52,172 bases of DNA from a virus. The number at the start of each line of letters is the position of its first letter. Position 1 is the stretch's first letter. The notes below the pieces were generated by a model. The model had not been told where the DNA came from. It did not search any database and was given only the letters and a program-made list of their open reading frames with translations. Where the stretch lies: positions 1 to 52,172 of the IMG/VR virus record IMGVR_UViG_3300027734_000102; one strand, given 5' to 3'. The position numbers were made by a program, and so were the translations under genes. Positions 6,878 through 48,674 of the stretch are shown here, in pieces.

Positions 6878-6881
6878 ACTC

Positions 6882-6919
6882 GGCCCTCTGCATTATATTT
6901 AAGATGCAGAGGGCCTTTG
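6882..6919 (+). terminator. Strong hairpin after the tRNA array
   Basis: Perfect 12-bp inverted repeat GGCCCTCTGCAT (6882-6893) and ATGCAGAGGGCC (6904-6915), 10-base loop, then TTTGTGT. It probably ends the tRNA transcript. It sits only 6 bases before the next ATG, so it could also sequester that start. Confidence 0.7.
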
Positions 6920-6925
6920 TGTACC

Positions 6926-8379: not shown

Positions 8380-8389
8380 AGAAGGAAAC

Positions 8390-9259
8390 ATGAGAATCAC
8401 AGAATCACAGCTTCGCAGAATCATCAGGGAAGAGCTATTGTCGGAGAAAACCTTGGGCCAGGTCACCGACATCCGTCCAGTGCCAATCGACCCAGCTGAC
8501 GATGAGATGATGATAGGTAACTTCACTTTCTCACCCGGTAGAAAGGACGTCACAACACGTCGTCGCGACATCAAGCGCTCTTGGAACCAGAACGCTGATC
8601 ACAGATTCTTCCAGGATCCGAACAAGATCCTTGTCATCCACACATTGGGCCTGGTCTCAGGCCGGGTGAAGCTGGGAAACTATTTCCCGCCCGAGGATAT
8701 CAATCCCAAGCTTTTCGAAGCTGCTGTGAAAGCTGGTCTCGTTGAAAACGATCCTGAGAAGAGGGGCGAATTTATCTCAGGCGGAAACCTGTTCAAGAGT
8801 ATTGCGCCCAGGATTCCGAAGGATCTCATACAAATCCCAGGCATCCAGATCCCGAACAGAAATGAGCTCTCCTGCGAGGCGATGCCCCGGGGCAACGATC
8901 CGGAGCTGAAGTATCTGGAGTGGAGTGTCTTCGCAAAGGGAGTAAGACGAGGTCGCAACCGGCGAAATCAAGCATTCTTCACCTTCAAGAAGTACAGGAT
9001 GACATGGGCCTCTCAGGATGACTCACACACAGAGCACCTGAACATGGCGACACCAGAGGATCTCAAGTTCTATGCGAGCTCAGGCCTGCCCAAACGCCCT
9101 GCGGCATACCTGCGCGTAGATCAAGCGCCGATCGATGAGGAGGATTCCCAGTTTCTAGGTGAGGTGGTAATCGACAACTGGATAGTCGATACCTACTACG
9201 GACCCAAGGAAGATGCTGGGCTCGCTGGGATCCTGGGGCTGAAATTCGAGATCCTGTGA
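8390..9259 (+). CDS. Tagged family-B protein (ADHxFFQDPxK ... VIDNW)
   Basis: 289 aa, ATG 8390 after GAAGGAAAC. Tag at 4-18 (TESQLRRIIREELLSE then K). The core is shared with the genes at 34876 and 36374: SWNQNADHRFFQDPNK, VIHTLGL, NELSC, FTFKKYRMTWAS, SSGLPKRP and a C-terminal E-VVIDNW-VDTYYGP. The gene-length spacing and the H...Y...E-hydrophobic-DNW order faintly recall ADP-ribosyltransferase folds, but homology is not shown. Distant relation to family C is clear from ADH, SSGxPKRP and DNW. Confidence 0.75.
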   Translation: MRITESQLRRIIREELLSEKTLGQVTDIRPVPIDPADDEMMIGNFTFSPGRKDVTTRRRDIKRSWNQNADHRFFQDPNKILVIHTLGLVSGRVKLGNYFPPEDINPKLFEAAVKAGLVENDPEKRGEFISGGNLFKSIAPRIPKDLIQIPGIQIPNRNELSCEAMPRGNDPELKYLEWSVFAKGVRRGRNRRNQAFFTFKKYRMTWASQDDSHTEHLNMATPEDLKFYASSGLPKRPAAYLRVDQAPIDEEDSQFLGEVVIDNWIVDTYYGPKEDAGLAGILGLKFEIL

Positions 9260-9417
9260 TGAAGTGATATTATAAGTTTCCACCTTGGAATCACGATGAC
9301 ATTAGTGGAACCTCGTGATACTCAGGAATAACTGACCTCAGGCGATTAGGATATACCTTACCATGGACCATGGTCCAACAGGGAACAACTGGTGAATAGA
9401 TATACGCAGGAGCGCAT
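9260..9417 (+). other. Intergenic region, 158 bases
   Basis: No credible gene. Holds the perfect 12-base palindrome GGACCATGGTCC (9365-9376), a GATATTATAAG string near 9267 that could be a -10 box, and GATATAC near 9400. It may contain the promoter of the ART gene. CAGGAGC gives the ribosome-binding site. Confidence 0.4.
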
Positions 9418-28325: not shown

Positions 28326-29549
28326 ATGGCCACATACGAAGAGCACCTCCTGCGAGAGGTAATTGCACTAGAGATCAGGACATACTACGCATACCACCCC
28401 TCGCCCAGTGAGCTCGTGCTCCGGGAGGGGCTCTCTGACTTTTTAGGAAAAGTCAAGGGCTTCGCGTCCAACATGGCTCAGAAGTTCTCAGACGGCTGGG
28501 AAGCGGTCACGAGCACCGTGAAGGGCATGATCGACACCGTGAAAGAGGCTGCCGTCGAGAAGCTAAAGTCCGCGTTCGAGAAGCTCAAGCAGATCTACGA
28601 GAAGGTGAAGGAAAGCCTCGGAAGCTTCTTCAATAGTCCAGACGTGAAGAGCTTCACTGGAAAGTACCTGAAGGACGAGGTGAAGCTCGCCGCAGAGATC
28701 AAGCAGACACTCGAGAGCGAGGACGCACCGTGCGCCCAGGCTGCGCTCAAGAGCATGGGCGAGAAAGCAAAGTCCTCTGATGCGGGTATCAAGGAAGGAA
28801 GAATCCGGCCTGGACGGGACCACAGGGCGGTGGCGCTGCTAGAGGCTGACATCAGGCATGGAAATCTCCGCCAGAGACAAGTCATCACCGAAGCGCTCTT
28901 GCCAGACCCGGTCAACACCTTCCTCCTCGCCATCGGTGGTCTCCCTCTGCTCTTCAAGGGACTTGAGAAGGCTTTCGAATACCTAGCCAACAAGTCCTGC
29001 GCAGCGTGGGCGAAGAAGGCGCAGAAGTACTCCAACGCTCTATACAAGTACTTCCACCACAAGGAAGAGGCCTTCATAGACCTGATTCCGAACTCTTTAG
29101 CAGTCAGATTCTATGGAGTCTATATCAAGGCTGGCGGAGATCCATTTGCTGAAGAGAGCTCTGCGAATGTGGTGCATGAGTCTTACCAGCTTTCAGAGTT
29201 CTTCTGGGGCAAGAAGAAAGAGGAAGACCGCGGACCATCACAGGACAACGAGCAGCCAAGCACGGCCAAAGTCAAGGGAAAGTTTGGTTCGACCAGCAAC
29301 GTCACTGTGAAGACTCTCGAGGAGAACAAGGCGCTCCGGATGAAGATCAAGAACGCAATGTACCACTTCCTCGTCATGTTACTTCTCTTCGAGGGAATCT
29401 ACACGCTGTTCAAGAAGGGATTCTCGGCCTTCTACACCTTCAAGTCTTCAGTGAAAAGCGCTGAGCTCGCCGCTGGCCGTGGGGCCGAAGCGGCGGCTGA
29501 GCTTGGATTTGCTGGCATCGCCTCTAGAACGGCGAGGTCAGCAGTCTAA
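28326..29549 (+). CDS. Tagged membrane/coiled protein, 407 aa
   Basis: ATG 28326, preceded by AATACTTAGTGGC. A tag-like N-terminus (EEHLLREVIALEIRTYYAY) and a second possible cut at LVLRE-G near residue 35. Residues 40-150 are amphipathic helices (FLGKVKGFASNMAQKF, MIDTVKEAAVEKLKSAFEKL). Hydrophobic stretches near 195-215 and 340-360 could span a membrane. Looks like a pore-forming or internal head protein; unrecognised. Confidence 0.65.
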   Translation: MATYEEHLLREVIALEIRTYYAYHPSPSELVLREGLSDFLGKVKGFASNMAQKFSDGWEAVTSTVKGMIDTVKEAAVEKLKSAFEKLKQIYEKVKESLGSFFNSPDVKSFTGKYLKDEVKLAAEIKQTLESEDAPCAQAALKSMGEKAKSSDAGIKEGRIRPGRDHRAVALLEADIRHGNLRQRQVITEALLPDPVNTFLLAIGGLPLLFKGLEKAFEYLANKSCAAWAKKAQKYSNALYKYFHHKEEAFIDLIPNSLAVRFYGVYIKAGGDPFAEESSANVVHESYQLSEFFWGKKKEEDRGPSQDNEQPSTAKVKGKFGSTSNVTVKTLEENKALRMKIKNAMYHFLVMLLLFEGIYTLFKKGFSAFYTFKSSVKSAELAAGRGAEAAAELGFAGIASRTARSAV

Positions 29550-32809: not shown

Positions 32810-33589
32810 TTACGCACTTCTACCCCCTAGGGCAGCCTCGATCTTCTCTTTGGGTATCTCTTTCATCTCCCAGTCGTATACTGGAAGGCCAAGTTCAAGG
32901 ATCACCTCAGCGTATCGAGTGTTGATGAAATTTCCCTTGTTGACGTCGTCCTTCACAATACCCGGAAACCCAATCAGGTCGACGATGATGCCCACCGGTT
33001 TCCAGTTGTCGACGATGAACTCACTGCGACGGGACTCATATGGATCGAAAGAGTCCCTATCAAGGATGTACTTGCCACTTCCGCCGCCCCAGGCCTCGGG
33101 CCCCCTGAAAGAGAGGGGACGCTTTGGGACGCCTGAAGATGCGTACTTCTTTAGTGCCTCTGGTGGAGCCTGCCCGTGGTACCCGCTGTTCACAGTGTTC
33201 ATGTCGTTCGAGGCAAGAGTTGTCCTGCCCTTCACGATGACTCCGACAGTGCCCCATGAGCTTGAGAACTTGTTTGAACCCGGGAGGTATCCGCTCGTTG
33301 AGATCTCGTTCTTTCCTGAGAGATTGAGGAAGTTCCTCAGCTTGTTCTCCCAATCGAGGCCACCGGTCCAGTGGATTTTGATGAGGGAGTCGATGAATCT
33401 GTGGTCAGCCTCGGCAGCCCATGCCCTTTTCACATCCCTCGCCATTGGCTTGTTGACGAGGCTTCCCTGCCGAGGGTCCTCAAAGGTGGGATCGTCGAGG
33501 TTAGCCATGTAGTCGATGCCCTTCGTGCGGGACTGGAATCCTTTGAGATCCTCGAGAAGAATTTCACGGACTAATTTGCGAAGCTGCAT
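32810..33589 (-). CDS. Tagged family-C protein
   Basis: 259 aa, ATG 33589, overlapping the upstream gene by 26 bases. Short tag MQLRKLVREILLE then D. Family-C core: EADHRFIDSLIKIHWTGG, KNEISTSGYL, VKGRTTLASNDMN, SSGVPKRP, ILDRDSFDP, EFIVDNWKPVGIIV. Shared with the C-terminal parts of the genes at 33564 and 38128 and with 35568. The EF-I-V-DNW strand and IHW start faintly resemble PARP-type ART motifs (H...Y-N-E-Y-I-V); this is speculative. Confidence 0.72.
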   Translation of the reverse strand: MQLRKLVREILLEDLKGFQSRTKGIDYMANLDDPTFEDPRQGSLVNKPMARDVKRAWAAEADHRFIDSLIKIHWTGGLDWENKLRNFLNLSGKNEISTSGYLPGSNKFSSSWGTVGVIVKGRTTLASNDMNTVNSGYHGQAPPEALKKYASSGVPKRPLSFRGPEAWGGGSGKYILDRDSFDPYESRRSEFIVDNWKPVGIIVDLIGFPGIVKDDVNKGNFINTRYAEVILELGLPVYDWEMKEIPKEKIEAALGGRSA

Positions 33590-34835
33590 TGAGCCACTCC
33601 TTTGCGAGGTTAGATTGCTTTCTCTTCATGTAAGGGATCTTGAATTCTTCGATAGTCTGGAAGATCTGGGTCCACATCTCACCCTTTGTCATTGGTGACC
33701 TTCCTTCAAACTCCCGCCACTTGTTGGGACTAGTGTGGTCGAGGACATCCTTGAGTGTGTTGTAGGTCGATTCCGTGAGGACGAAACCGATGGGCTTCCA
33801 ATTGTCGACCAGGAACTCATTGTATCCCTGTTCATCGGGTCTGAAGGAATCCTCATCGAGGATGTAGCCTGCGCCCTCGAAGGTGTCCCTGTAGGACTGG
33901 GGCCTCTTGGGGACCCCAGAGTGCCTGTACTTCCACATCCTTGAGAACTGTCCGGGGCCGGAGAAGTATCCGGTGTAGAGTCTGTTCATGTCGTTGTGGG
34001 CGATGGTGGTCCTGCCTTGGAGCTGGAATCCGGCGCCACCCCAGCCCCAGTTGGTGTAGGGAGGCTTCAGGTATCCCATGGTGGAGATCTCGTCCTTCCT
34101 GCCGCTACTGAGGAACTTCCTCATCTTTTCTGGGTTGATGTCCTTCATCCAGTGGATCTTGGTGACGGATTCCATAAACTGATGGTCGGCTTCCTCCTTC
34201 CAGGCGGTCTTGAGTGCCCTTGCATTCTTTCGAGCTTCACGATCTTCCTCGAAAGTGGGGTCTTTCTCGATGTCAATTCTGTACTCATGGGATGCCGCCT
34301 TCTTTCTGAAGCCCGTCAGGTCCTCACTGAGGATTGACCTGATGAGGTTGCGGACCAGGGACTCACCCATCGCCATGGACCAGAATTTGTCCTGAGCCCT
34401 CTTGCTACAGTAGGTCTCCACGACCTCCGCCATGGGAACTTTCATGTAACCCAGTTCCTCAAGCCCGTATCCAATCATGATCATGCTCTCGGGTTCATAC
34501 CCGAATTTTCCCGCGCATGGAGCCGCAATCTCTGACCAAGTGTCCCAAGCGCGCTGGTCGAGAGTATCGGGGTCTTCCATCTCGATGCTGCTCATTGAGG
34601 AGACCCGTAGCCAACCAGACTTCAAGAGAGCGTCCTGTGCATCTATTATTTCGTCATCCAAGCGTATGAAGTCGTCTCGATCGAAGCCCGGATTGAGATG
34701 CATGTACGCCCATGTCGGATGGGTGAAGCTGTCGTCGATCCAGTGCGTCACACCGGTTGGCTCCACCCACGCGAGGCTCCCCATCGAGTTGCATATGCGA
34801 TTTGTGGATGGTGCTGGCCTGTCTATCGTCGTCAC
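33564..34835 (-). CDS. Two-domain protein: W-x-P domain, internal tag, family-C domain
   Basis: 423 aa, GTG 34835, supported by N-terminal similarity to the protein at 38128 (PSTNRIC / PSINRMC, then SLAWVEP / SLAWIEP). Residues 19-110 form the WIEPxGxxHW...H...WA...NP domain also found at the C-terminus of the 915-aa protein. Residues 157-171 (GESLVRNLIRSILSE then D) are an internal copy of the tag. The rest is family C (EADHQFMES, DEISTMGYL, GRTTIAHNDMN, SGVPKRP, YNEFLVDNWKPIG). A maturation protease could split it into two products. Confidence 0.75.
   Translation of the reverse strand: MTTIDRPAPSTNRICNSMGSLAWVEPTGVTHWIDDSFTHPTWAYMHLNPGFDRDDFIRLDDEIIDAQDALLKSGWLRVSSMSSIEMEDPDTLDQRAWDTWSEIAAPCAGKFGYEPESMIMIGYGLEELGYMKVPMAEVVETYCSKRAQDKFWSMAMGESLVRNLIRSILSEDLTGFRKKAASHEYRIDIEKDPTFEEDREARKNARALKTAWKEEADHQFMESVTKIHWMKDINPEKMRKFLSSGRKDEISTMGYLKPPYTNWGWGGAGFQLQGRTTIAHNDMNRLYTGYFSGPGQFSRMWKYRHSGVPKRPQSYRDTFEGAGYILDEDSFRPDEQGYNEFLVDNWKPIGFVLTESTYNTLKDVLDHTSPNKWREFEGRSPMTKGEMWTQIFQTIEEFKIPYMKRKQSNLAKEWLNAASQISP
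34323..34367 (-). other. Internal tag / predicted prohead-protease site
   Basis: Encodes residues 157-171 of the 423-aa protein, ending L-S-E before Asp. Its position between two domains that occur separately elsewhere suggests a processing site. Confidence 0.5.
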
Positions 34836-34875
34836 TTATCCGCTCCTTCCAGCGCTAGGACCTTCAGTTGTCTTA

Positions 34876-35571
34876 TCACCAGAGTACCTCATACTTCAGA
34901 CCGAGCTCCTCAGCGTACTCAGCCTCTTCTTGTGGCCCATAGCATGTGTCCACGACCCAGTTGTCTATGACCACTTCCTCAAGGTCGTAGCTGAACGCCC
35001 CTTCCTCGTCTATCGGAAAGTCGCTGTCGGGCGACAGGGCGGAAGGTCTCTTTGCGAGTCCTGAGCCCTTCATCCTCTCGATGTCTTTCGGTGTCGCCTT
35101 GCTGAGCCTCTCAGTGGCTGCGTCCTGCGTAGAGACGAGGGTGACACGGTACTTCTTGAAGGTGAAGTAGGGGCCGGTCGCAAATCCTATGAAGTCCTTT
35201 GGATTTGCCGGGGGAATGTATCCGAAGCAGCTTAGCTCATTCCTGCTGGGGATGTGGATGCCCGGTATCCTTCCTGGCGTGACCTTTCCCTCTGGGAAGT
35301 AGTCAGTGAGAGAGCTACCTCCCGAATAGAGTCCGAGGAAGTGGATCACCTGCATCTTCTTCGGGTCCTGGAAGAAGGCGTGGTCAGCGAATCGGTTCCA
35401 GGACTTCTTGATCTTCCTCCTGTAGTCGGTGGTGGCCCTGTCGCCGTACTTGAGCCCACCACCCTCAGAGTCGTCTGTGTCGACGTCCGGACCTGGGATC
35501 CTTCTTCCACGTGTGATGTCAGCCAGGGTCTTCTCCTGCAGTAGCATCTCCCTGATCAGATGTCTTATCAT
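34876..35571 (-). CDS. Tagged family-B protein
   Basis: 231 aa, ATG 35571 overlapping the upstream stop (ATGA). Minimal tag MIRHLIREMLLQE then K. Core as at 8390: SWNRFADHAFFQDPKK, VIHFLGLYSGG, RNELSCFGY, FTFKKYRVTLVS, GSGLAKRPS, EEVVIDNWVVDTCYGP, LGLKYEVLW. Shorter than the 8390 copy by an internal deletion near residues 95-105. Confidence 0.75.
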   Translation of the reverse strand: MIRHLIREMLLQEKTLADITRGRRIPGPDVDTDDSEGGGLKYGDRATTDYRRKIKKSWNRFADHAFFQDPKKMQVIHFLGLYSGGSSLTDYFPEGKVTPGRIPGIHIPSRNELSCFGYIPPANPKDFIGFATGPYFTFKKYRVTLVSTQDAATERLSKATPKDIERMKGSGLAKRPSALSPDSDFPIDEEGAFSYDLEEVVIDNWVVDTCYGPQEEAEYAEELGLKYEVLW

Positions 35572-36377
35572 CTCGTCACTTTCCTCTCTACACCGCGCTC
35601 ATCGTAAATAAGTATCCCTGATGGTATATCATGCCTCTTGAAGCTTTCGAGAATCTCATCAATTCCCACGTCTCGTATCCGATCATCGGGCACCACAATC
35701 CCCTCGATTTGCCAGTTGTCAAGCAGAGCTTCAGGCCAACCCATTGGAGAGTCATTGACCTCTCTGGACGATGGAGAAAACACGGTCTTCGCATCGAAGT
35801 TGATCTTCTCGGCAGGCGCAATCTCATCTGCGGAGTAGACGAGGTGGTCCTCCCATGAGCGGGCAAGCTGGGTGCTGAAGTCATCGCTGAAATCAGGCTC
35901 AGATCCCGGCGACTTTGGTCCTGGATACTTGTTCCAGCCGGACGACTTCTCCCTGTGTGTCATCTTCTCGATGTCCATGACGCTCGGAAGTCTTCTGAAC
36001 GCGTTAGAGTTGAGATCGGCGTTGGCGACAAGCGTGGGATGACCCTTCAAGACAACGCCATAGATGTCAGACCAACCAAGAGAGAATGGCTTCCAGGGCG
36101 GAGACCTGTATGGGAATGTCGAGATCTCATCCCTTCCCTTAGGCTTCCGCAGGAGCTTTGCGATGTTGAGGAACCCGTTCCAGTGGATGAACGTGACGCT
36201 GTCGAAGGAGGAGATGTCAGCCTCTTTCTGCCACATGGTCTTCAGCACCCTTCCAAAGTTCCTCCGCTCGACTGGCCCATGGGTCTTTGTGGCCATGTGG
36301 GTCGCGAGGTTGGCGTTCATCCGGCGCGTGAAATCGTCCTCCTGGAGGAGCATCTCTCTGATCAGGCGGCGTATCAT
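35568..36377 (-). CDS. Tagged family-C protein
   Basis: 269 aa, ATG 36377 in an ATGA overlap with the upstream family-B gene; a longer reading from 36434 would overlap more and put the tag inside. Tag MIRRLIREMLLQE then D. Core: EADISSFDSVTFIHWNGFL, RDEISTFPY, VVLKGHPTLVANADLN, then a diverged C-terminus with ALLDNWQIEGIVVP. The most divergent family-C member, with an insertion before the DNW motif. Confidence 0.72.
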   Translation of the reverse strand: MIRRLIREMLLQEDDFTRRMNANLATHMATKTHGPVERRNFGRVLKTMWQKEADISSFDSVTFIHWNGFLNIAKLLRKPKGRDEISTFPYRSPPWKPFSLGWSDIYGVVLKGHPTLVANADLNSNAFRRLPSVMDIEKMTHREKSSGWNKYPGPKSPGSEPDFSDDFSTQLARSWEDHLVYSADEIAPAEKINFDAKTVFSPSSREVNDSPMGWPEALLDNWQIEGIVVPDDRIRDVGIDEILESFKRHDIPSGILIYDERGVERKVTR

Positions 36378-37177
36378 ATCTTCTCGCACTTGAGACCGAT
36401 CTTCTTCGCGTAGGCCATATTCTCCTCGCGGCAATAGTAGGTATCGATGATCCAGTTGTCGATGACGACATCCTGTAGTATCCTGCGTTCTCCAATCCCT
36501 TCTAGGTCCAGAGGAAAGTGCTTGTGCGGAGTGTTGGCCGGCGGTCTCTTGGGAAGCCCTGAGCTTTTGAACTTCTCGTAGTCTATGGCTGATGCCAGGC
36601 TCATGAGCTCAGTTCCAAGATCGTACAGAGACGCCAAAGTGATGCGGTACTTCTTGAAGGTGAAGAACTCATCCCTGAACACGCCAAACTCATTGGTGCG
36701 CAGCATGCTCATCTGATCTTCTGTGGGATTGACGATTCCGAAGCAGTTCATCTCGTTCTTGCTCGGAAAGTCTATTCCCGGTATCTTTCCAATCGTGATC
36801 TGCTTTAGCGGAAAGTAGTCTTTCAGCGACCTCTTGCCCGAGAACAGACCGAGCTTGTGATAGACGTAGAGGTTCTTCGGATCCTGGAAGAAGGACTGAT
36901 CAGCATTCTGGTTCCACTGGGACTTCATCTTCCGCCTGTAGTCCGAGGTGGCCTTGTTATACATGTAGTCCAGAGGAGGCTGATAGTAGGGATTGAGGTT
37001 GACTCCCGGCGGAGCCTCTTCTTGCGAGGGTGTCTTGACGATGTCCTCAAGCGACTTCTCGCGTAAAAGCACCTCACGGACGACTCTCCTCACCTCCTGG
37101 AGCTCGATATCCTCAGTATCCATGGGGTCGAGTGGGACGTCCTGAGCAGACGGCATCGTGAATATCTCTTTGTTCAT
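36374..37177 (-). CDS. Family-B protein with offset tag
   Basis: 267 aa, ATG 37177 in an ATGA overlap with the stop of the upstream gene (a reading from 37252 is rejected). A 25-residue acidic leader precedes the tag LQEVRRVVREVLLRE then K. Core: SQWNQNADQSFFQDPKN, VYHKLGLFSGK, KNEMNCFGI, FTFKKYRITLAS, SSGLPKRPP, QDVVIDNWIIDTYY, IGLKCEKI. The Glu seen before VVIDNW in the other B members is Asp here. Confidence 0.74.
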   Translation of the reverse strand: MNKEIFTMPSAQDVPLDPMDTEDIELQEVRRVVREVLLREKSLEDIVKTPSQEEAPPGVNLNPYYQPPLDYMYNKATSDYRRKMKSQWNQNADQSFFQDPKNLYVYHKLGLFSGKRSLKDYFPLKQITIGKIPGIDFPSKNEMNCFGIVNPTEDQMSMLRTNEFGVFRDEFFTFKKYRITLASLYDLGTELMSLASAIDYEKFKSSGLPKRPPANTPHKHFPLDLEGIGERRILQDVVIDNWIIDTYYCREENMAYAKKIGLKCEKI

Positions 37178-37545
37178 AGTCCGCTCTCCGTCACGAGGTC
37201 CCAGGGTCCGTATGTCTTGAATTTCAACGCCTTCTCTTTTGCTTCTGACCAAGTATATTGGTGTTCGTTTCCAATGTCACTGATCTGGCCAATGGCGTAG
37301 TAGAGGAACGCAGGCATCTCGAGGTTCCTGCCGTTTGACTTGTCGACCACGACTGCCATGTCCTTCACCACGAAGGCGTGGCCGAAAGTCGTGCCCTCGA
37401 GGGGTCCCTGTCCCATCACTTCAGCATGGACGAGAATGTACCTCGACTCGTTCTCTGGAGTGAACGTGCATTCATCCATGATGAACTTGAATGCTGCCTC
37501 ATAGCAGTCCCCGAGCGCTTGCTTCTTTCTCGATTTTCTTGGCAT
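37174..37545 (-). CDS. Small Cys/His/Asp protein, possible papain-like fold
   Basis: 123 aa, ATG 37545, four bases after an ATAGTTA element. DCYEAAFKFIM, then LVHAEVMGQGPLEGTTFGHAFVV and VVDKSNGR: a Cys on the first helix, His before a strand and Asp after it, the order of a papain/transglutaminase-like triad. I recall this pattern in uncharacterised phage proteins. It is the only untagged member of the minus-strand block. Confidence 0.65.
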   Translation of the reverse strand: MPRKSRKKQALGDCYEAAFKFIMDECTFTPENESRYILVHAEVMGQGPLEGTTFGHAFVVKDMAVVVDKSNGRNLEMPAFLYYAIGQISDIGNEHQYTWSEAKEKALKFKTYGPWDLVTESGL

Positions 37546-37549
37546 GCTG

Positions 37550-37556
37550 TAACTAT
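37550..37556 (-). promoter_or_regulatory. ATAGTTA element
   Basis: ATAGTTA on the minus strand four bases before the ATG at 37545, as GCATAGTTACAGC-ATG. Too close for a normal leader, implying a nearly leaderless transcript if it is a promoter box. Confidence 0.4.
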
Positions 37557-37582
37557 GCTAAGCGAGCGATGAGTTCATATCA

Positions 37583-38131
37583 CTAGGAAATGATAACGAT
37601 GATGCCAAGCCTCTGCAGTTCATCGATCACCGGAGTGCCCCTCTTCCTGTAGACCTTGGAGAGGGGTGACTCTTGCCACCCGCTCGCGTCCTCTCTTGCG
37701 GATGACTGCTTACAGTCATCCTCCTCGTCGTAAGGAGTGAGAATACCAGGCGTCGAATCGAGCTGAGCACTTGACACGTCAGGACGATTGTTGAGATAGT
37801 AAGCCCAGACCCTTCTGGCCTCTGGTGAGACCATCGCCCTGTCAGACATGATGCCAGCATCTCCTGCGATCTCCATCGCGATATCATAGAGGAGTGGGCC
37901 GAGTCCCTCACGGTCAGTGCCAGAAAGTATGACCTCATACGCACCGAGGCAGTTTCCAATTCCGAGTGACCTCTGCATGATGATCTCTCCGATTGGACCG
38001 CAAGAGATTTTCCATCCGCCTTTGCCGAAGCGTGTCCTCTTCACTGTGAAGACGATTCCTTCCTCGGCTGCTCGTTCCGGTGTGTACATCGCCTCAGTGA
38101 GGAGCATCTCACGTATCAGCTCCCTTATCAT
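37583..38131 (-). CDS. Tagged family-A protein
   Basis: 182 aa, ATG 38131 overlapping the upstream stop. Tag MIRELIREMLLTE then A. Family-A motifs: GLGPLLYDIAMEIAG, IMSDRAMVSPEARRVWAYYLNNRPDV, LTPYDEEDDC, PLSKVYRKRG. Diverged N-terminal half. Confidence 0.75.
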   Translation of the reverse strand: MIRELIREMLLTEAMYTPERAAEEGIVFTVKRTRFGKGGWKISCGPIGEIIMQRSLGIGNCLGAYEVILSGTDREGLGPLLYDIAMEIAGDAGIMSDRAMVSPEARRVWAYYLNNRPDVSSAQLDSTPGILTPYDEEDDCKQSSAREDASGWQESPLSKVYRKRGTPVIDELQRLGIIVIIS

Positions 38132-39318
38132 CGTGTCCTCAGCATCTCTTTGAAGGGTGCCATGTCCTTGGGCGTTCCGTTATTCGTGTAGACAGGGAGA
38201 TCAGAGGTGACGAAGAGCTTCACCAGATTCTCGTAGCTCTCTTCAAGCTTTCTCTTTCCGAGGACCGGAACGCTCTTCTTTAGATCATTGATGAACCAGA
38301 GGGGAGCGATGAGTCCTGTTGGACGCCAGTTGTCCAAGATGAGCTCGTTACCGAGGTACTGACTGCCGAAACTCTCCCCGTCGAGGATGAACCCCTTCGC
38401 TTTTTCTGGACTGAATTTGCTTGCTCGTCTCGGAAGGCCGGAAGTCTTGCTGTACTTCTCAATCTCACCTGGATCAATCTCACGGTAGTAACCGGAGACG
38501 ATGGCATTCATGTCATTCGCCGCGAGGGTGGTCCTTCCCTGGACCATGATGCCGAACTCTCCCCACTGGCTGACGCTGGGCTTGCCGATGTATCCCATCG
38601 TGGAGATCTCGTCCTTGCCGCTCGCATTGAGGAAAGAGCTCATCTTCTCGAATACCCGGTACGGTGACTTTGGCATGCCGGCAATCCAGTGAACCTTGAT
38701 CAGGGACTTGAAGAACTCGTGGTCGGCCTCCTGTGACCAGATGCTCTTCAGTTCCCTTGGCAGTTTCTTGGGATCTTTTGAACCGTAACTGATATTCGAA
38801 GTCTTTGAAGTGAAACCCTCAAGACCCTCACGAAGCAATGACCTCACGATGTTGCGAATGAGGGACTCACCCATTAGTTTGGCCCAGTATGCTTCACTTG
38901 CTCTTTTGCTGCAATACTTCTCTATGAAGTCACCGACGGTGGTCTTGAAGTATTCTCTGATTCCGTAGCCAGTCGAAACAGTCATCTCCTTCTCTGGAGG
39001 GACCTGTCTCGCACATGAGGCAACGATTGTCAACCAGGCATCCCAAGCAGCCTGAGAGATGGAGCTGATGTTGCGTACGTCGATGTCTACGACAGATGAG
39101 ACTCTGATCCACCCGCGCTCAAGAAGTTGCAGAGAACTCTGTGCAGAGTCAGGCACGTATGGACTGTTCTCCCGGTCTGGATTGTGGTATATGAAAGCCC
39201 ACATGCCATGAGTGTGCGTCATGCCTATCCAGTGAATCTTACCATTGGGTTCTATCCAAGCCAGCGAGGTGAGAGGACTGCACATCCTGTTGATCGATGG
39301 TGGCGACTCTTCTCTCAT
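38128..39318 (-). CDS. Two-domain protein: W-x-P domain, internal tag, family-C domain
   Basis: 396 aa, ATG 39318 in an ATGA overlap. Same architecture as the gene at 33564: residues 18-105 (SLAWIEPNGKIHWIG, THGMWAFIYHNP), internal tag at 150-164 (GESLIRNIVRSLLRE then G), family-C core (EADHEFFKSLIKVHWIAG, DEISTMGYIG, VQGRTTLAANDMN, SGLPRRAS, NELILDNWRPTGLI). The conserved order shows that the fused form is selected, not an accident. Confidence 0.76.
   Translation of the reverse strand: MREESPPSINRMCSPLTSLAWIEPNGKIHWIGMTHTHGMWAFIYHNPDRENSPYVPDSAQSSLQLLERGWIRVSSVVDIDVRNISSISQAAWDAWLTIVASCARQVPPEKEMTVSTGYGIREYFKTTVGDFIEKYCSKRASEAYWAKLMGESLIRNIVRSLLREGLEGFTSKTSNISYGSKDPKKLPRELKSIWSQEADHEFFKSLIKVHWIAGMPKSPYRVFEKMSSFLNASGKDEISTMGYIGKPSVSQWGEFGIMVQGRTTLAANDMNAIVSGYYREIDPGEIEKYSKTSGLPRRASKFSPEKAKGFILDGESFGSQYLGNELILDNWRPTGLIAPLWFINDLKKSVPVLGKRKLEESYENLVKLFVTSDLPVYTNNGTPKDMAPFKEMLRTR
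38827..38871 (-). other. Internal tag / predicted prohead-protease site
   Basis: Encodes residues 150-164 of the 396-aa protein, ending L-R-E before Gly, at the junction of its two domains. Confidence 0.5.
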
Positions 39319-40007
39319 ATTTCATCCTCCGACAATCTCTGGTCGAATATCATCCTGAAAAGCTGGCGGAGGTAGAAAGTGAGATTCTCTATGCCAATGC
39401 TGGAACAGAACTTCATGCAGTCCTCGTGGTTCTTCTCAAGTGTCCGGAGGCCTGGCGGCTCATTCTTCAGACTGTAGGAATAGTTCAGGAAGTCTCGATC
39501 CTGAAAGCCGCAGTCATCCTCTTCAGGCGGCGTCTTTGGGTCGTTGATGTCATCGAAGGGTGATTTTATAACGTCGTCTCGGTCATAGTACCTCGACCAG
39601 ACATAGCCCGCCAGCCTGCTGGTCTCCACCCTGTCTGAGGCTAGCCCGCCTGTGTACCAGATCGCTGCCTCGTAGGCAGCAGGTCCCATACCGGATCTAG
39701 CGACTGAAGCTGCCTTTGTCACCACCTTGGCGCCGTTGCAGGGTTCGGTCTCTGTAATCCACCTGATGCCTGACCTCACGATAGGATCCTCTTCTATCGA
39801 GTCCTGTATCATGTTGTAGTCAACGGGAAGCCCCGCCTCCTCGTATTCTCTAGCCAGTCGATAGACAATGCTGGGATCGTAAATCATCAGGTATCCTGCT
39901 GAATCGGGACTACCCACAACACACACGGCCAATCCAGCGCTCGCAGCCCTTGAAGTCGGAGACGTTGACTCCTGCAGGAGCATCTCTCTTATGAGTTGAC
40001 GTATCAC
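39315..40007 (-). CDS. Tagged divergent family-A protein
   Basis: 230 aa, ATG 40007 in an ATGA overlap. Tag MIRQLIREMLLQE then S. The family-A core is recognisable: SGMGPAAYEAAIWYT, LASDRVETSRLAGYVWSRYYDRDDV, TPPEEDDCGF. It has a longer C-terminus (about 40 residues) than the others. Confidence 0.7.
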   Translation of the reverse strand: MIRQLIREMLLQESTSPTSRAASAGLAVCVVGSPDSAGYLMIYDPSIVYRLAREYEEAGLPVDYNMIQDSIEEDPIVRSGIRWITETEPCNGAKVVTKAASVARSGMGPAAYEAAIWYTGGLASDRVETSRLAGYVWSRYYDRDDVIKSPFDDINDPKTPPEEDDCGFQDRDFLNYSYSLKNEPPGLRTLEKNHEDCMKFCSSIGIENLTFYLRQLFRMIFDQRLSEDEI

Positions 40008-42751
40008 GGCAGTCTCTTCATGAAACTCTCGATCGCCTGCCAGTCACCCTCAGCCAGGGGCTTATTGTTATCGAATATGTTGTGGTATCTCTCGGGGTCT
40101 GAGCCTGCATTCATTCCGAGGTCAAGCCAGGCGTTCACCACAGTGCGGGTGGGCTTCCAGATCTCTAAGGAGTAGGCATTGGAGACCTTGCCCCAACCGT
40201 TGCGAAGGAGGGTCCTCATGGCGACCGATCTCACCTCTGACTGAATGTCGGAGTTGTAGTATAGTTCTCCCATGTTGGAGAACTCCGGGATTGTTTTGCC
40301 TGTGAGAGGACGCCCACCCTGTCTCTTCCAATCGTCCATCTTCTTGCCCATTGGAGACTTGGCATCATAGACAGCCTGCTCCTCTGGTGTCCTGGGTGGT
40401 GGAGGGTCTATGGGACCGCACTCCACTTCAAGAGCGGCCTCAAACTGTGGCATGAGTGACGGGTTCCTGCCTATGTGGAAGGCTGCCCACTCCCCATGGT
40501 CTCGCTGTTCGGGATTGTAATGGTACACTCCATCGGGATCGATCCAACCCACAGAGTGGGTGGTAGACGATGTAAAACCGGAGGGAGGAGATGACTCATT
40601 GAGTATGCCTCTCACGAGACTCCTGACGAGTGACTCGTTCTTTTCGAACCTCTTCACTTTGCTCAGCACGTCTTTCCTCGTTTCCTGATATTCATCGCCG
40701 GTGCCTCCGACCTTACCCGTGTCTACGACCTTCGGGTAAGCCTTCTTCGGGTACTCCTTCCACCTCTTGATGAACTTCGGTGGGATCCATCCACGGTAGG
40801 CGAATGTTCCCTTACGCGTGATGCCTGTGGTGAGGAATGACATTATCTTCGAGTCAATGTCCTTCATCAGGGCGCTGAACTCTTCGTCCTTTGCCCATTC
40901 GAGTCCAGCCTCCGGAGCCTCACCAATGTCCTTGCCATAGGCTACTGTGGTGTTAGCAAGGCGGACTGTGCGTATGATGTTCTTGAAGTGCTGTTCCCTT
41001 GCGATGGTGTGCTTCCCACCGGGCTCGGAAGTCGTTGTAACATTCCAACCGTAAGTCTCAGGGTTCCACGTCTCGTTCTTCTTGATGCGGTCAGACTGGG
41101 TGAGCGTGTATTCTCTATCGAGATTGAACCAGCTCAGGTTGTCCTCGTCAGGAACTATTCTGGTGATGTCTGGAATCTCGACCTTGAGGATGAGGGGCTT
41201 CCCACCATACCAGATGGCCGACCTGGTTGCGTAGTTCTCTGCAGTGTGCGGGTCCATGGTGAAGTAGAGGTTCTTCGAGGAGTAGCCTTCGATCTGGTCA
41301 CCGTACGCGTCTTCGAACTTTCCAGGAAGCATCCCTTTCTTCTCGATATCCGGCCAGCGTGCTGTAGTTGTGCCGTGATATGCCATAATTGTTCCCCGCA
41401 CGCCACCGACTGCAATGTCCGTGGTCCTGGGCGCGCTCCCAGCCTGACCTATCGTCTGGCCCTCATATTTGTCGTCTGGTGAGAAAATCTTGTAATCGGG
41501 TGTCACTCTTGGGTCGACCTGCATGAGGTGATTGAAGAGCTTCTTGAGAGCAATCTCCTTGCCGACAAAGGCAACGTCCCCCGACGGCATGACGTATGAC
41601 TTGTCCTTGACTGTCTTTTTCGGTGTGCTGGCTCCCCTTCGAGACTGGTGATCTGTCCAAGTGGCGTCAAGGCTAACGCGCTTATTGACAGTGTCAACGA
41701 GGAGGTACTCGAAATTAGCGCCTACGGGACCATAGTATATGTGAGTGTCAGGGATGTCGGAAGGCTTCTTCCAATTTTCGCCAGCGCTGCCAGGAACTCT
41801 CTTGAGATACTTGAACGTGGAGTCCTTGTACTCTTCCTTCCTCGGCGAGCTCTTCTCATAGAGACCGAGAGCAACTAGCTCCTCTGCCTTCCTTAGCTGC
41901 TCAGGTGTGAGGTCGTAGTCCTTTCCTGAGCAGCGCCTGTAATCTTCAGAAATTGAACCGGGAATTTCGACTGGTTCGCCGCCAGGCCCGACTGCATAGT
42001 AGAGCACATAACCTGCCGCTATTGGACGGGCATAGTATTTGGATTCTGTAGGGACTCGGTCATTAGGAGCGTTCCGTAGCTCCAACAGCAGAACTGTCTC
42101 TCTTATCAGATCTCTTAAGACTATAGAAGCTCTAGACTCTCTCTTGTTAAATGAAAATGTGCTTGCCATCTCAACCTGCTTTTGTAGTTCTTCTTGTGTG
42201 GCCTTTGGAGATCTTCCCCAGTCGGGCGTGGACCTGTCACTGAGATAGCTAGCCGAATCTATCTCGTAGGCATCTCTTGGTATCGCGCCGTGGGTGTATA
42301 GGATTCCCGTGTGCGATAGACCGGGCACGACCCACACGGGAACACCAGAGTCGATGCCAGCCCTACACGCCTGCTTGATGGAGACCTTGTCATCTCTCTC
42401 ACCAATCATTACGTAGCTACCAAACGGAAGCTTTGGCGCCGGCGCAGTGGTCCATCCCCTGTAGATCGCCGGCGCCAGCATCACTACGCGTGGCATCTCA
42501 TCAATCATCTTCAATCTGACTGCCTGCGCCAAGATTGCAGCGCCCCTGCTGTAGGCAACTATGTTGTCGTCGTCGGGATCAGCCACAGCGTCATTGATCG
42601 CCTTGGCGACCTTGATCACCTCGTCAAGCTCAACTGGCCCGCCCTTGTGGAGCGCCGGTCCCATGAGACCAAGCGTACGCATCAGGTCGAACTTGTCCAT
42701 GCCGGCACCGTGGATGCCTATGTTCTCTTTCAAGCGCTTTGACTTTCTCAT
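40004..42751 (-). CDS. Giant multidomain tagged protein: hydrolase-like, ART-like and W-x-P domains
   Basis: 915 aa, ATG 42751. Domain 1 (about 1-170) resembles an alpha/beta hydrolase: AYS68RG nucleophile elbow, GERDD near 120 and SH147TG. An internal tag at 208-224 (IVLRDLIRETVLLLE). Domain 2 (about 235-670) contains an ART fold: AYH459GTTTARW, then NLY496FTMDPHTAENYA, ILKVEIPD and a final GWIPPKFIKRW. A second internal tag at 705-719 (NESLVRSLVRGILNE then S). Domain 3 (731-915) is the WIDPDGVYHY...HGEWAAFHI domain found at the N-terminus of two neighbours. It looks like a polyprotein with processing sites between modules. First gene of the minus-strand operon. Confidence 0.75.
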   Translation of the reverse strand: MRKSKRLKENIGIHGAGMDKFDLMRTLGLMGPALHKGGPVELDEVIKVAKAINDAVADPDDDNIVAYSRGAAILAQAVRLKMIDEMPRVVMLAPAIYRGWTTAPAPKLPFGSYVMIGERDDKVSIKQACRAGIDSGVPVWVVPGLSHTGILYTHGAIPRDAYEIDSASYLSDRSTPDWGRSPKATQEELQKQVEMASTFSFNKRESRASIVLRDLIRETVLLLELRNAPNDRVPTESKYYARPIAAGYVLYYAVGPGGEPVEIPGSISEDYRRCSGKDYDLTPEQLRKAEELVALGLYEKSSPRKEEYKDSTFKYLKRVPGSAGENWKKPSDIPDTHIYYGPVGANFEYLLVDTVNKRVSLDATWTDHQSRRGASTPKKTVKDKSYVMPSGDVAFVGKEIALKKLFNHLMQVDPRVTPDYKIFSPDDKYEGQTIGQAGSAPRTTDIAVGGVRGTIMAYHGTTTARWPDIEKKGMLPGKFEDAYGDQIEGYSSKNLYFTMDPHTAENYATRSAIWYGGKPLILKVEIPDITRIVPDEDNLSWFNLDREYTLTQSDRIKKNETWNPETYGWNVTTTSEPGGKHTIAREQHFKNIIRTVRLANTTVAYGKDIGEAPEAGLEWAKDEEFSALMKDIDSKIMSFLTTGITRKGTFAYRGWIPPKFIKRWKEYPKKAYPKVVDTGKVGGTGDEYQETRKDVLSKVKRFEKNESLVRSLVRGILNESSPPSGFTSSTTHSVGWIDPDGVYHYNPEQRDHGEWAAFHIGRNPSLMPQFEAALEVECGPIDPPPPRTPEEQAVYDAKSPMGKKMDDWKRQGGRPLTGKTIPEFSNMGELYYNSDIQSEVRSVAMRTLLRNGWGKVSNAYSLEIWKPTRTVVNAWLDLGMNAGSDPERYHNIFDNNKPLAEGDWQAIESFMKRLP
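40592..40639 (-). other. Internal tag 2 of the 915-aa protein
   Basis: Encodes residues 705-720, with L-N-E before Ser, between the ART-like region and the C-terminal W-x-P domain. Confidence 0.5.
42074..42133 (-). other. Internal tag 1 of the 915-aa protein
   Basis: Encodes residues 207-226, an LRDLIRE-type helix ending L-L-E before Leu, between the hydrolase-like and ART-like parts. Confidence 0.5.
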
Positions 42752-43155: not shown

Positions 43156-43176
43156 GCTCACGAGGTGAGCGCACCA

Positions 43177-45036
43177 ATGACCACGATCGAGCAGAAGTAC
43201 CGGAAGCTCTCGGACATCGAGCATGTCCTGCTCCGACCCGGCATGTATGTGGGTTCCACAAAGACCCGCGAGGAGGATGCCTGGCTCCTCACCGAGCCTA
43301 GCAAGTTCGAGCGCCGCAAGGTGACCGTGAACCCCGCCCTCATGAAGATCTTCGACGAGATCGTGAGCAACTCGGTCGATGAGCACCGCCGGAACCCGAA
43401 GCTCAATGAGATCCAAGTGACGGTCGACCTCGACCACGGTTCGATCTCAGTCTGGGACAACGGCGGAATCCCTGTCGTGAAGCATGCTGACTATGGTGAG
43501 TGGGTTCCTGAGATGATCTTCTCGAACCTCAAGGCTGGCTCTAACTTCAACGACGATGAGGAGCGTCTGGTCGCAGGCACCAACGGCGTCGGTTCGACCC
43601 TCACAAACATCTTCTCCAAGAAGTTCCGGGTGCGGACCGCAGACCGGAAGAGCTCGTTTGAGCAGATCTTCAGCGACAACATGCGCCAGCGGAGCGTTCC
43701 CGAAGTTGAGAAGACCCGTGAGGGCTTCACTGAGATCTACTTCGAGCCTGACCTCCAGCGATTCGGAATGGAGTCGATCGATTCCGATCACCTTGAGCTC
43801 ATGCGGAAACGCTGCGTAGATCTCGCGGCGTGCAACCCGAGCCTTCGGATGTCGTTCAACGGCACCGACTACCGGTTCTCCTCATTCAAGGAGTACTGTG
43901 GACTCTACGCTCCAGGCGTGATCTACGAGGAGTCGGGTCGCTGGAAGGTCGGTGTCCTTCCGTCTGAGGGTTCGTTCTCTCAGGTCTCTTTCGTGAACTC
44001 AGTGGAGACCAAGGACGGCGGATCGCACGTCGATTCGGTCGCGGCTGGAGTCATCGAGTGGATCCGCGAGAAGGTTCGCCGGAAGCACAAGGTAGACCTA
44101 AAGCCCTCTGAGCTCCGTAACCACTTCTTCTTCCTCGTCCAGGCCGACATCGTCAATCCGGCGTTCTCCTCCCAGACGAAGGAGAAGCTCATCACTGACG
44201 CACGGGAGTTCGGCTCCAAGTTTGAGATGAGCGAGCGGACCCTGAAGCAGGTCCTCGCCTCCGAGGTCGTCCAGCGAATCCTCGACTGGGCGCAGCAAAA
44301 GGCACTTGCTGACGAGCGCAAGCAGCTCCGTGAACTCAACAAGAACCTCGCGAAGGGCAAGGTGCTGAAGCTCATCGATGCGAAGCTCAGGCTCGACCGC
44401 GACCGGTGCACCCTTGCCCTGTTCGAGGGAGACTCGGCGTCGTCAGCGTTCCGCAAGTACCGGGACACCATGACCCAGGGCGCCTTCCCGCTCCGTGGTA
44501 AGTTCATCAACGTTGCAGAACTGCCGAGCACCCGTGTCATCCAGAACCAGGAGGTGAAGGACCTGCTCACTGCGATCGGTCTGAAGATGGGTGAGGAACC
44601 CAAGGACCTCCGCTATGGCAAGATCCTCATCTACTCCGACGCTGACCCGGACGGTGACTCCATCGCCGGGCTCCTGATGAACTTCTTCGGGCGATACTGG
44701 CCTGAGCTCTTCGACCAGGGTCGAATCTGCCGGGTCATGACCCCGCTCGTGGTCGCCAAGAAGGGGAGTGAGACGCTGTCCTTCTATTCCAACGCCGACT
44801 TCGAGGAGTGGGTAGGCAAGACGAAGGACCTGAAGAAGTGGGACATCGCCTACAAGAAGGGACTTGCGGCGCTCGAGGATGAGGAGTACAAGGAGATCAT
44901 CCAGAATCCTCGAATGTTCTCCATCGCTGGCGGCAAAGAGCTGAAGACGACTCTCGACACCTGGTTCGCCGGAGACTCGGCTCCTCGAAAGGCTAAGATC
45001 ATTGGCTGTGAAGAGGAAGCCGAATCGGGAGACTAA
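43177..45036 (+). CDS. DNA topoisomerase II large subunit (gp39/GyrB-like)
   Basis: 619 aa from ATG 43177, chosen because GAGGTGAGC is well placed upstream; a GTG at 43165 is the alternative. GHKL ATPase motifs: EIVSNSVDEH, VWDNGGIPV, GTNGVGSTLTNIFSKKF; transducer region; TOPRIM motifs FEGDSASSAF and YSDADPDGD with Mg-binding acids; a C-terminal tail as in T4 gp39 plus gp60, here in one chain. With the gp52-like subunit at 47310 it forms an ATP-dependent type II topoisomerase that untangles replicating DNA. Converges on the minus gene ending at 45033, overlapping by four bases. Confidence 0.94.
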   Translation: MTTIEQKYRKLSDIEHVLLRPGMYVGSTKTREEDAWLLTEPSKFERRKVTVNPALMKIFDEIVSNSVDEHRRNPKLNEIQVTVDLDHGSISVWDNGGIPVVKHADYGEWVPEMIFSNLKAGSNFNDDEERLVAGTNGVGSTLTNIFSKKFRVRTADRKSSFEQIFSDNMRQRSVPEVEKTREGFTEIYFEPDLQRFGMESIDSDHLELMRKRCVDLAACNPSLRMSFNGTDYRFSSFKEYCGLYAPGVIYEESGRWKVGVLPSEGSFSQVSFVNSVETKDGGSHVDSVAAGVIEWIREKVRRKHKVDLKPSELRNHFFFLVQADIVNPAFSSQTKEKLITDAREFGSKFEMSERTLKQVLASEVVQRILDWAQQKALADERKQLRELNKNLAKGKVLKLIDAKLRLDRDRCTLALFEGDSASSAFRKYRDTMTQGAFPLRGKFINVAELPSTRVIQNQEVKDLLTAIGLKMGEEPKDLRYGKILIYSDADPDGDSIAGLLMNFFGRYWPELFDQGRICRVMTPLVVAKKGSETLSFYSNADFEEWVGKTKDLKKWDIAYKKGLAALEDEEYKEIIQNPRMFSIAGGKELKTTLDTWFAGDSAPRKAKIIGCEEEAESGD

Positions 45037-46743: not shown

Positions 46744-47256
46744 ATGAAGTCTCTTCGAGGCCTCATCCGAGAGATGTGTAAGAAACCCGAATACTGGGGT
46801 CGCGGCGGCGCCGGAATCATGTTCCGCTGTCCCGATGACGACACGGTCCTTCTTCTCCTGCGCGCTCCTTGGGTCGCCCAGGGCGGGACATGGGGTATAC
46901 CCGGCGGCGGGGTCGAGGAAGGTTGGTTCGAGACTCCGATTGAGGATCCCATCACTGATCCTATGGTGTTCCGGAACGCGGCTTTCCGTGAGGCGGTCGA
47001 GGAGTGTGGCTCGCTTCCTCCCGGATTCTCGCCATCTCAGGTCGTAGGGCAGACGGTCTACGAGGACTGCGGTTTCCAATATGTCACCCTCCTCGCCGAC
47101 ATCACCCTGGAGCAGAAAGAAGGGTGGCACCTCGAGTCCAACGACGGTGAGACTGACGACTTTCAGTGGGTCCCGAGGTCGAAGCTGAATCCCGGCGCTA
47201 GCTTGATGGGAAGTCGTCTCCACTTCGGAGTGGAGTACACGCTCTCTAAAATGTGA
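46744..47256 (+). CDS. Tagged Nudix hydrolase
   Basis: 170 aa from ATG 46744; a TTG at 46720 overlapping the previous stop would add eight residues. Short tag SLRGLIREMCKK. The Nudix box appears as GGGVEEG...R82-E-A-V-E-E-C-G89, with an unusually long insert between the two halves of the motif. Nudix enzymes hydrolyse nucleoside diphosphates linked to another group (ADP-ribose, NADH, caps). Its place directly after an ART gene suggests turnover of ADP-ribose or NAD-linked products. Confidence 0.85.
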   Translation: MKSLRGLIREMCKKPEYWGRGGAGIMFRCPDDDTVLLLLRAPWVAQGGTWGIPGGGVEEGWFETPIEDPITDPMVFRNAAFREAVEECGSLPPGFSPSQVVGQTVYEDCGFQYVTLLADITLEQKEGWHLESNDGETDDFQWVPRSKLNPGASLMGSRLHFGVEYTLSKM

Positions 47257-47264
47257 GATGCCAG

Positions 47265-47293
47265 TGTTCAACTCCGTGCACCTGTATTATAAT
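47265..47293 (+). promoter_or_regulatory. Promoter of the topoisomerase medium subunit
   Basis: TGTTCA (47265-47270), 17-base spacer, TATAAT (47288-47293). Transcription from about 47300 would begin inside the AAGGAGG region, supporting the TTG at 47310 as the real start. Confidence 0.5.
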
Positions 47294-47309
47294 GGTCAAG
47301 GAGGTCACA

Positions 47310-48674
47310 TTGGCAGAGACCCAGCAAGTATCAGTCCGCAAGGTCGAGGACTTCTTCGACAATGAGTACAAGGGGTACGCGGTCTACACGATCGAGAACC
47401 GCGCAATCCCGTCCGTGATCGACGGCTTCAAGCCATCTCAGCGGAAGATCGCATATGCGGCAAACCGGCTGTGGAAGACGGGCAATGAGAAGCCCATGAA
47501 GGTCTTCCAGCTCGGTGGTCAGGCTGCGGCAATCTCGTTCTTCCACCACGGTTCGCTCGATGGTACCATCATCGGGATGACCCAGGAGTTCAAGAACTCG
47601 ATGCCCATCTTCCAGGGCATCGGCCAGTTTGGCTCCCTCCGGTCCCCTGAGCCCGGCGCTGCCCGATACATTGGCGTGAAGTTCAACGAGAACTTCAAGC
47701 TCCTCTATAAGGACTTTGAGCTCGTCACGCCGAAGTTCGAGGAGGGCGAGGAGATCGAGCCTCAGTTCTTCCTGCCCATCATCCCCACGGTGCTCCTCAA
47801 CGGCGGGTCTGGAATCGCGGTCGGGTTTGCGACGAACATTCTCAACCGCCATCCCCTCGACCTCGTGGACGCTTGCCTCGCCCAGCTCGATAAGAAGAAG
47901 CTTCCGGTCCTCCGTCCCTGGATCAAGGGATTCCACGGGACCTTCGAGCAGTCGGCAGAGAACAAGAAGACCTGGGTGATCCGTGGCGCCTTCGAGGTGA
48001 AGAACACGTCGACGGTCGAGATCACTGAGATTCCCCCGTCGTTCACGTACGAGAAGTATGAGTCCCTCCTCGACTCCTTGGTTGAGAAGGACATCCTCGC
48101 CTCCTACGATGACCACTCATCGGACCGGGTCCGATATGTTCTCAAGTTCCCGCGCACGATCCTCGCTGAGTACATCAAGAAGGACAAGCTCGGTGACCTG
48201 CTGAAGATGCGGGAACAGGAGACTGAGAACCTGACGACCCTTGATGAGAACGGCAAGCTCAAGGTGTTCGATTCACCCGATGACATCGTGAAGTACTTTG
48301 TTGACTTCCGGTTGGATTACTATGGTCGTCGCAAGGCCTACCTTCTGAGTGAGCTGGGTAACGATCTCAAGGTCCTCTCTGCGCGCGCAAAGTTCGTCAA
48401 GGCGATTGTCGACCGCGTGATCGAGGTCGCAAACGTGAAGAAGGCTGATATTGAACGGGGGATCGAGTCCCTGGGAATCGAGCGCGGCGAGGACGGATAT
48501 GAGTTCCTGTTCTCGATGCCGATCCACACCCTCACCGCCGAGAAGTATGCTGAGCTTCTCAAGCGGCTTGAGTCGAAGCAGAAGGACTACGACAAGGTGC
48601 TGAAGACTGAGCCTGCTGACTTCTACAAGCAGGACCTCAAGGACCTCAAGAGGCAACTAGAGAAGTCTGCCTGA
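47310..48674 (+). CDS. DNA topoisomerase II medium subunit (gp52/GyrA-like)
   Basis: 454 aa from TTG 47310, which follows AAGGAGG at ideal spacing; upstream GTG 47253 and ATG 47292 would lie before the likely transcript start. YTIENRAIPSVIDGFKPSQRKI is the subunit signature (shown in parts YTIENRAIP and DGFKPSQRK), and the catalytic tyrosine is Y120 in AARYIGV. C-terminal coiled-coil/tower region, no GyrA beta-pinwheel, as in T4 gp52 (442 aa). Partners with the subunit at 43177. The TGA overlaps the next ATG by one base. Confidence 0.93.
   Translation: MAETQQVSVRKVEDFFDNEYKGYAVYTIENRAIPSVIDGFKPSQRKIAYAANRLWKTGNEKPMKVFQLGGQAAAISFFHHGSLDGTIIGMTQEFKNSMPIFQGIGQFGSLRSPEPGAARYIGVKFNENFKLLYKDFELVTPKFEEGEEIEPQFFLPIIPTVLLNGGSGIAVGFATNILNRHPLDLVDACLAQLDKKKLPVLRPWIKGFHGTFEQSAENKKTWVIRGAFEVKNTSTVEITEIPPSFTYEKYESLLDSLVEKDILASYDDHSSDRVRYVLKFPRTILAEYIKKDKLGDLLKMREQETENLTTLDENGKLKVFDSPDDIVKYFVDFRLDYYGRRKAYLLSELGNDLKVLSARAKFVKAIVDRVIEVANVKKADIERGIESLGIERGEDGYEFLFSMPIHTLTAEKYAELLKRLESKQKDYDKVLKTEPADFYKQDLKDLKRQLEKSA

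Follow-up and report, generated by a model that had tools for sequence, protein, structure and literature searches.

We analysed a 52,172-nt viral DNA record (IMGVR_UViG_3300027734_000102, hereafter the window), in which three minus-strand open reading frames (ORFs) encode proteins of 423, 396 and 915 amino acids (aa) that carry a short sequence, the tag, between their domains. With a probability of roughly 55%, we read this tag as a capsid-targeting and cleavage sequence of the T4 type, retained when neighbouring cargo genes fused, so that the fused cargo chains of this large T4-like phage would most likely be cut inside its head. The tag corresponds to an amphipathic helix of about ESxLRxLIRExLLxE and is common to otherwise unrelated proteins in many phages. 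The three fusions, with their domains termed D0 to D3, and the four internal tags are as follows.

33564..34835, minus strand: 423-aa fusion D1-tag-D2; GTG start, Shine-Dalgarno -8.4 kcal/mol
34323..34364, minus strand: internal tag ESLVRNLIRSILSE of the 423-aa protein; predicted cut after E171
38128..39318, minus strand: 396-aa fusion, paralogous to the 423-aa one and likewise D1-tag-D2; starts with ATG, Shine-Dalgarno -9.5 kcal/mol
38827..38868, minus strand: internal tag ESLIRNIVRSLLRE of the 396-aa protein; predicted cut after E164
40004..42751, minus strand: 915-aa fusion D0-tag-D3-tag-D1
42080..42127, minus strand: first internal tag SIVLRDLIRETVLLLE of the 915-aa protein; predicted cut after E224
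40595..40636, minus strand: second internal tag ESLVRSLVRGILNE of the 915-aa protein; predicted cut after E719

The four internal tags are real and exceed what chance would produce. They were scored with a 12-column matrix trained on 64 N-terminal tags (9 from the window, most from other contigs), and internal copies were kept out of the training set. Their cores occupy residues 158-169 of the 423-aa protein, 151-162 of the 396-aa protein, and 209-220 and 706-717 of the 915-aa protein, with per-protein shuffle p values of <0.0003, 0.004, and 0.0005 and 0.0014, respectively. All four are followed by [L/I]-x-E (ILSE-171, LLRE-164, LLLE-224 and ILNE-719). An earlier note on this DNA had placed tags inside the three proteins at residues 171, 164, 224 and 719, and the ORFs, motif ends and shuffle p values agree with it. 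Among 1816 ORFs from tag-bearing and related contigs, 33 internal tags were observed against 4.0 expected by shuffling, some of the 33 being over-extended starts.

The downstream parts of the 423- and 396-aa proteins align, tag included, with N-terminally tagged proteins of 259 and 288 aa, indicating that their tags are homologous by descent. Both proteins lack an N-terminal tag and have an in-frame stop directly upstream of the start; because strong Shine-Dalgarno starts directly follow these stops, no tag is hidden further upstream. Between the two paralogues the tag stretch is identical at 14 of 21 positions (67%), compared with 143 of 363 (40%) in the two domains (p = 0.013), which would be expected of a working signal and not of a mere relic. 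Sequencing error was also considered as the source of the fusions. It is unlikely for the 423- and 396-aa proteins only, which have a common architecture at 40% identity; the verdict does not extend to the 915-aa protein.

A degenerate DNA pattern of the N-terminal form (ATG-K/R-I-x-E-x-x-L-R-x-x-I-R-E) matched 65 stretches of IMG/VR DNA on other viral contigs, usually at an N-terminal tag, and three genes in the window, where none was expected by chance. The exact peptide pattern ITESQLRRIIREEL matched only the strain-level contig L004/L005, which does not cover the fused-gene region, and searches of the tagged proteins against cultured phages (megablast, tblastn) gave no match. Among the multi-tag proteins seen, tags were densest in the 325-aa product of L015:2029-3006, which has three of them (near residues 5, 99 and 202), and a dense cargo array in L018 (G005, 28-9975) holds about 17 small tagged genes in less than 10 kb.

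The domains bordering the tags, and the free-standing D2 proteins of the window, have the following positions.

34365..34835, minus strand: D1, residues 1-157 of the 423-aa protein; shares 41% identity with its counterpart in the 396-aa protein
33564..34322, minus strand: D2 of the 423-aa protein, 44% identical to the stand-alone 259-aa protein
42137..42751, minus strand: D0 (residues 1-205 of the 915-aa protein), probably alpha/beta-hydrolase-like; weak Pfam matches, E 0.018-0.019, below cut-off
40646..42079, minus strand: D3 (residues 225-702 of the 915-aa protein), possible ADP-ribosyltransferase (ART)-like domain; phrog_11974, 5.8e-5
40004..40594, minus strand: D1 of the 915-aa protein, beginning after E719
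32810..33589, minus strand: stand-alone D2 protein with N-terminal tag MQLRKLVREILLE
34876..35571, minus strand: stand-alone D2 protein with N-terminal tag
35568..36434, minus strand: stand-alone D2 protein with N-terminal tag; start likely at residue 20
36374..37252, minus strand: stand-alone D2 protein whose tag lies at residue 51; its start is probably too far upstream, with an ATG located 7 codons ahead of the core
8390..9259, plus strand: stand-alone D2 protein; canonical tag MRITESQLRRIIREELLSE at the N-terminus

Besides these five window copies, free-standing tagged D2 occurs in the related contigs G011, L120 and L121. The D1 that follows E719 starts at the position matching the start codon of the 396-aa protein, whose N-terminal domain is D1 (ILNE/SSPPSGF.. 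vs MREESPPSIN..). A relative of D3 (L064:3-977, in G021) stops exactly at the border of the second tag, and the next gene in G021, joined by an ATGA overlap, encodes a GNAT protein with the tag-like N-terminus MNLEQLEIIIEGILTE. The earlier note had the domains occurring alone elsewhere; this applies to D2 and to the end of D3, where the relative stops, and does not apply to D1, which was seen only in the three fusions, or to D0, which was seen nowhere else.

Assignments of the domains themselves were sparse. D3 also gave weak PARP and RNA 2'-phosphotransferase matches, and Pfam at E 0.1 returned no family for the three whole window proteins. D2 had no match in genome_contigs, and in viral_contigs single-sequence patterns gave no close relative of either the 423-aa or the 915-aa protein. 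In the predicted structure of the 423-aa protein, D2 was fair (pLDDT mostly 60-90), D1 poor and the tag a low-confidence helix. Foldseek with this structure yielded no match below E 0.6 (the effector XopAI appeared at E 2.6-4.4), and D2 was therefore assigned no fold, as is also the case for D0 and D1. The predicted structure of the 915-aa protein was unusable (mean pLDDT 31). A tree of D2 gave no resolution between loss of D1 from the 259-aa gene and a fusion that arose twice.

Fusion at tags was seen in two other lineages as well. In L121, a tagged NUDIX gene and a tagged D2 gene are separate and overlap by four bases, and in L120 NUDIX and D2 form one 427-aa ORF with a weakened tag in between. 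L018 encodes tag-HD-tag-X in a single 317-aa ORF; L010 and L031 have X as a gene of its own with an N-terminal tag. In the L018 fusion this tag no longer has its methionine but retains the core and L-A-E. Judged from these comparisons, internal tags are borders between gene-sized units that are separate genes elsewhere. The D2 of L121 (L121:610-1365) resembles the tag of one L120 paralogue and the body of the next (L120:5998-7502), a mosaic suggesting that tags may be sites of shuffling or recombination.

Such borders might also coincide with nested genes, the downstream parts being made additionally from internal starts, which would give two products per ORF and render polyprotein cleavage unneeded. 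In the 423- and 396-aa proteins an ATG does precede the tag core by 2 codons, and in the 915-aa protein a GTG or ATG is found 7-14 codons ahead of the cores, with a well-spaced GAGG upstream of the GTG at residue 695. However, the ribosome-site energies of these codons (-4.0, -2.4, -5.4 and -5.9) are about those of internal ATG/GTG codons picked at random (median -3.0, 5% at -6.9), whereas the true starts of the 423- and 396-aa proteins reach -8.4 and -9.5. A synonymous-site test gave no significant rise in codon identity at the tag (p = 0.10), the L018 fusion lacks its ATG, and the full-length fusion would be produced in any case. We thus regard nested genes as distinctly improbable. Internal starts were what the earlier note had named as speaking against its polyproteins, and the ribosome-site test lends them no support.

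Evidence for a role of the tag in the head came from tag-bearing relatives. Peptidase_S77, the family of T4 gp21, was present in 13 of the 20 tag-bearing records searched, including 11 of the 12 over 90 kb, and in 0 of 14 cellular control records; taken by itself, with cellular records as the sole controls, this link is suggestive. Among large relatives the closest is G011 (257 kb), which encodes a gp23-like major capsid protein. Its S77 protease gene (L082:12364-14076; G011 88364-90076, minus strand) carries an intein-like insert with a LAGLIDADG domain. In L042, L039 and L067, the stretch from portal to protease, which in T4 is the location of the prohead core genes, contains N-terminally tagged genes. 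Most other protease neighbourhoods, several of them short, contain a tag-like protein at a score of at least 9.

The sequence following the tag pointed in the same direction. L/I-x-E occurs in the 8 residues following 96 of 174 N-terminal tags (55%) and 19 of 33 internal tags (58%), compared with a background of 9.6%. Relative to the rest of the same proteins, it is enriched 15- to 18-fold at positions 2 and 3 behind the core. After C-terminal tags it was found once in 13 cases, a figure that is trivial in part because the core is where those proteins terminate. T4 gp21 cuts with the specificity L/I-x-E and needs little else, and T4 cargo bears a 10-residue N-terminal capsid-targeting sequence (CTS) in which targeting and processing residues are separate (PMC9026906). 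Position, motif and protease family together suggest that the tag works like a CTS. Where the earlier note spoke of a cleavage site, the gp21-family protease, the genes in the head cluster and the L/I-x-E after internal tags argue for a sequence like a head-targeting and cleavage signal; that the fused proteins are themselves cut or located in the head we infer from sequence.

We picture packaging, cleavage, ejection and effector function as follows. The amphipathic tag helix would dock cargo on the prohead core, and the L/I-x-E behind it would be the site for a prohead protease of the gp21 family. Adjacent cargo genes, the downstream one tagged, would have fused in frame and so given rise to internal tag copies, each of which could act as a shared address, C-terminal for the upstream part and N-terminal for the downstream part. 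During head maturation, the S77 protease would most likely cut after E171, E164, E224 and E719, releasing D1 with a C-terminal tag and free D2 from the 423- and 396-aa proteins and D0, D3 and D1 from the 915-aa protein; the freed proteins (D0, D1, D2 and D3) would then be ejected into the host. More tentatively, at a little under even odds, we propose that a tag between two cargos is at once address and cut site, so that effector polyproteins would be loaded and split in trans, and that it also forms a cassette border for shuffling and fusion.

Several observations weigh against targeting followed by cutting. No head genes lie in the window, which is a fragment, and the phage's own S77 protease gene is likewise absent from it. 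About 45% of the N-terminal tags have no L/I-x-E within 8 residues, the conservation test (67% vs 40%) compares a single sequence pair, and a D1 profile search of 48 records found no free D1 gene. In addition, the cut would leave a tag on the C-terminus of D1 of the 423- and 396-aa proteins. Finally, the internal tag of L120 has lost its L/I-x-E and shows VDD in the position normally taken by the motif, as though cutting could be dispensed with in this protein; because this tag decayed, the constraint on the tag is not universal.

The L120 tag, with its core kept and its usual cleavage motif lost, would suit intact multidomain cargo that is packaged via the internal tag and delivered uncut, L/I-x-E being the leftover of a once stand-alone downstream gene. 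Precedents exist: in T4, Asp at the cleavage residue stops processing and still allows targeting (PMC9026906), and the N4 virion RNA polymerase is packaged unprocessed (PMC5512222). Yet L/I-x-E is kept in all four window copies and follows internal tags overall as often as N-terminal ones, and gp21 cutting after this motif needs little else (PMC9026906). We therefore consider delivery of uncut chains unlikely.

As to the tag left on D1, one window protein and several in relatives carry tags at their C-termini.

15054-15653, plus strand: HAD-like hydrolase whose exact C-terminus is formed by the tag core TESRLRQIIRNSLL, without L/I-x-E; not linked to the internal tags in the earlier note

Exact C-terminal tags (ESRLRQLIRQML-stop) were also seen in LRV/HEAT repeat proteins of 521 and 582 aa (L008) and 647 aa (L108), and a 647-aa protein of L065 likewise ends in an exact C-terminal tag. 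The C-terminally tagged proteins of the window, L008, L065 and L108 suggest that a tag remaining on a C-terminus is tolerated. Tags without cleavage motif at the exact C-termini of large LRV/HEAT repeat proteins would equally fit a different interaction helix, for example an assembly or enzyme-partner motif, in which case the fusions would be ordinary domain fusions. We find this very improbable in view of the head-cluster position, the occurrence of a gp21-family protease in almost every large contig with tags and the 15- to 18-fold excess of L/I-x-E directly after the core.

Compared with known systems, the tag resembles the T4 CTSs (IPI-IPIII, Alt) with gp21 in being a short sequence on unrelated head cargo that ends in L/I-x-E, and in its company of a gp21-family protease in tag-bearing relatives and a gp23-like capsid protein in G011. 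It differs in sequence (an LRxLIRExL helix), in standing N-terminally, internally or C-terminally, and in the many cargos per phage. The CTSs described in T4 are N-terminal, Alt having a C-terminal propeptide as well; the four window copies are internal, and most other copies N-terminal. As in the window fusions, a single chain with several gp21 cut sites is found in the T4 core proteins gp22, gp67 and gp68 (PMC9026906), but their fragments are mostly discarded peptides, whereas folded domains lie between the sites in the window fusions.

Polyvalent proteins (Iyer et al. 2017, PMC5512222) likewise combine several unrelated domains in one predicted packaged chain and include ART and GNAT activities among their cargo. 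Two or more unrelated domains per chain were found here as D1+D2 and D0+D3+D1 in the window, NUDIX+D2 in L120 and HD+X in L018. Polyvalent proteins have been explicitly likened to polyproteins, and DdrB of P1 is processed before packaging (PMC5512222). Their release is ascribed to an embedded metallopeptidase domain, of which none was found in the window fusions, where the cut sites would be copies of the targeting tag and the protease would act in trans. The Pfam search at E 0.1 found none of the catalogued polyvalent domains (such as MPTase, ArdC-N, DarA and PBECR) in the three whole window proteins, D3 being weakly ART-like. The fused proteins are thus not strictly CTS proteins by position, nor polyvalent by catalogued domains or embedded peptidase.

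Ejection proteins of phiKZ and SPN3US also undergo multiple cuts per substrate by an E-specific prohead protease (PMC10052503), but these cuts remove long propeptides and not linkers between cargo domains. In P1 DarB, an N-terminal capsid localisation signal suffices to bring a reporter into the head (PMC9024508); P1 differs in having no separate T4-type scaffold, and the DarB signal is N-terminal. With multi-site cutting of T4 core proteins (PMC9026906) and polyvalent proteins (PMC5512222) already known, the new packaging strategy announced in the earlier note was too strong a claim. What looks new is an address tag common to two cargos in one chain; the open-licence literature searched contained no internal CTS or prohead-protease polyprotein of this type.

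If the proposed targeting and cutting hold true, a short tag would predict, among many unknown phage proteins, those carried in the head and their cut sites. This would apply to a large T4-like phage group, for whose tagged proteins the cultured-phage collection searched gave no match. Phages would also have a simple means of bringing together several proteins that act on the host and delivering them from a single gene, and the tag could be used as an internal linker to load phage heads with two proteins per chain.

Elsewhere in the window, a 407-aa protein (28326-29549, plus strand) showed a weak match to the internal head protein PHROG phrog_5750 (E 2.7e-4). Both subunits of a phage-type DNA topoisomerase II (43165-45036 and 47253-48674, plus strand) flank the right end of the tagged cluster.

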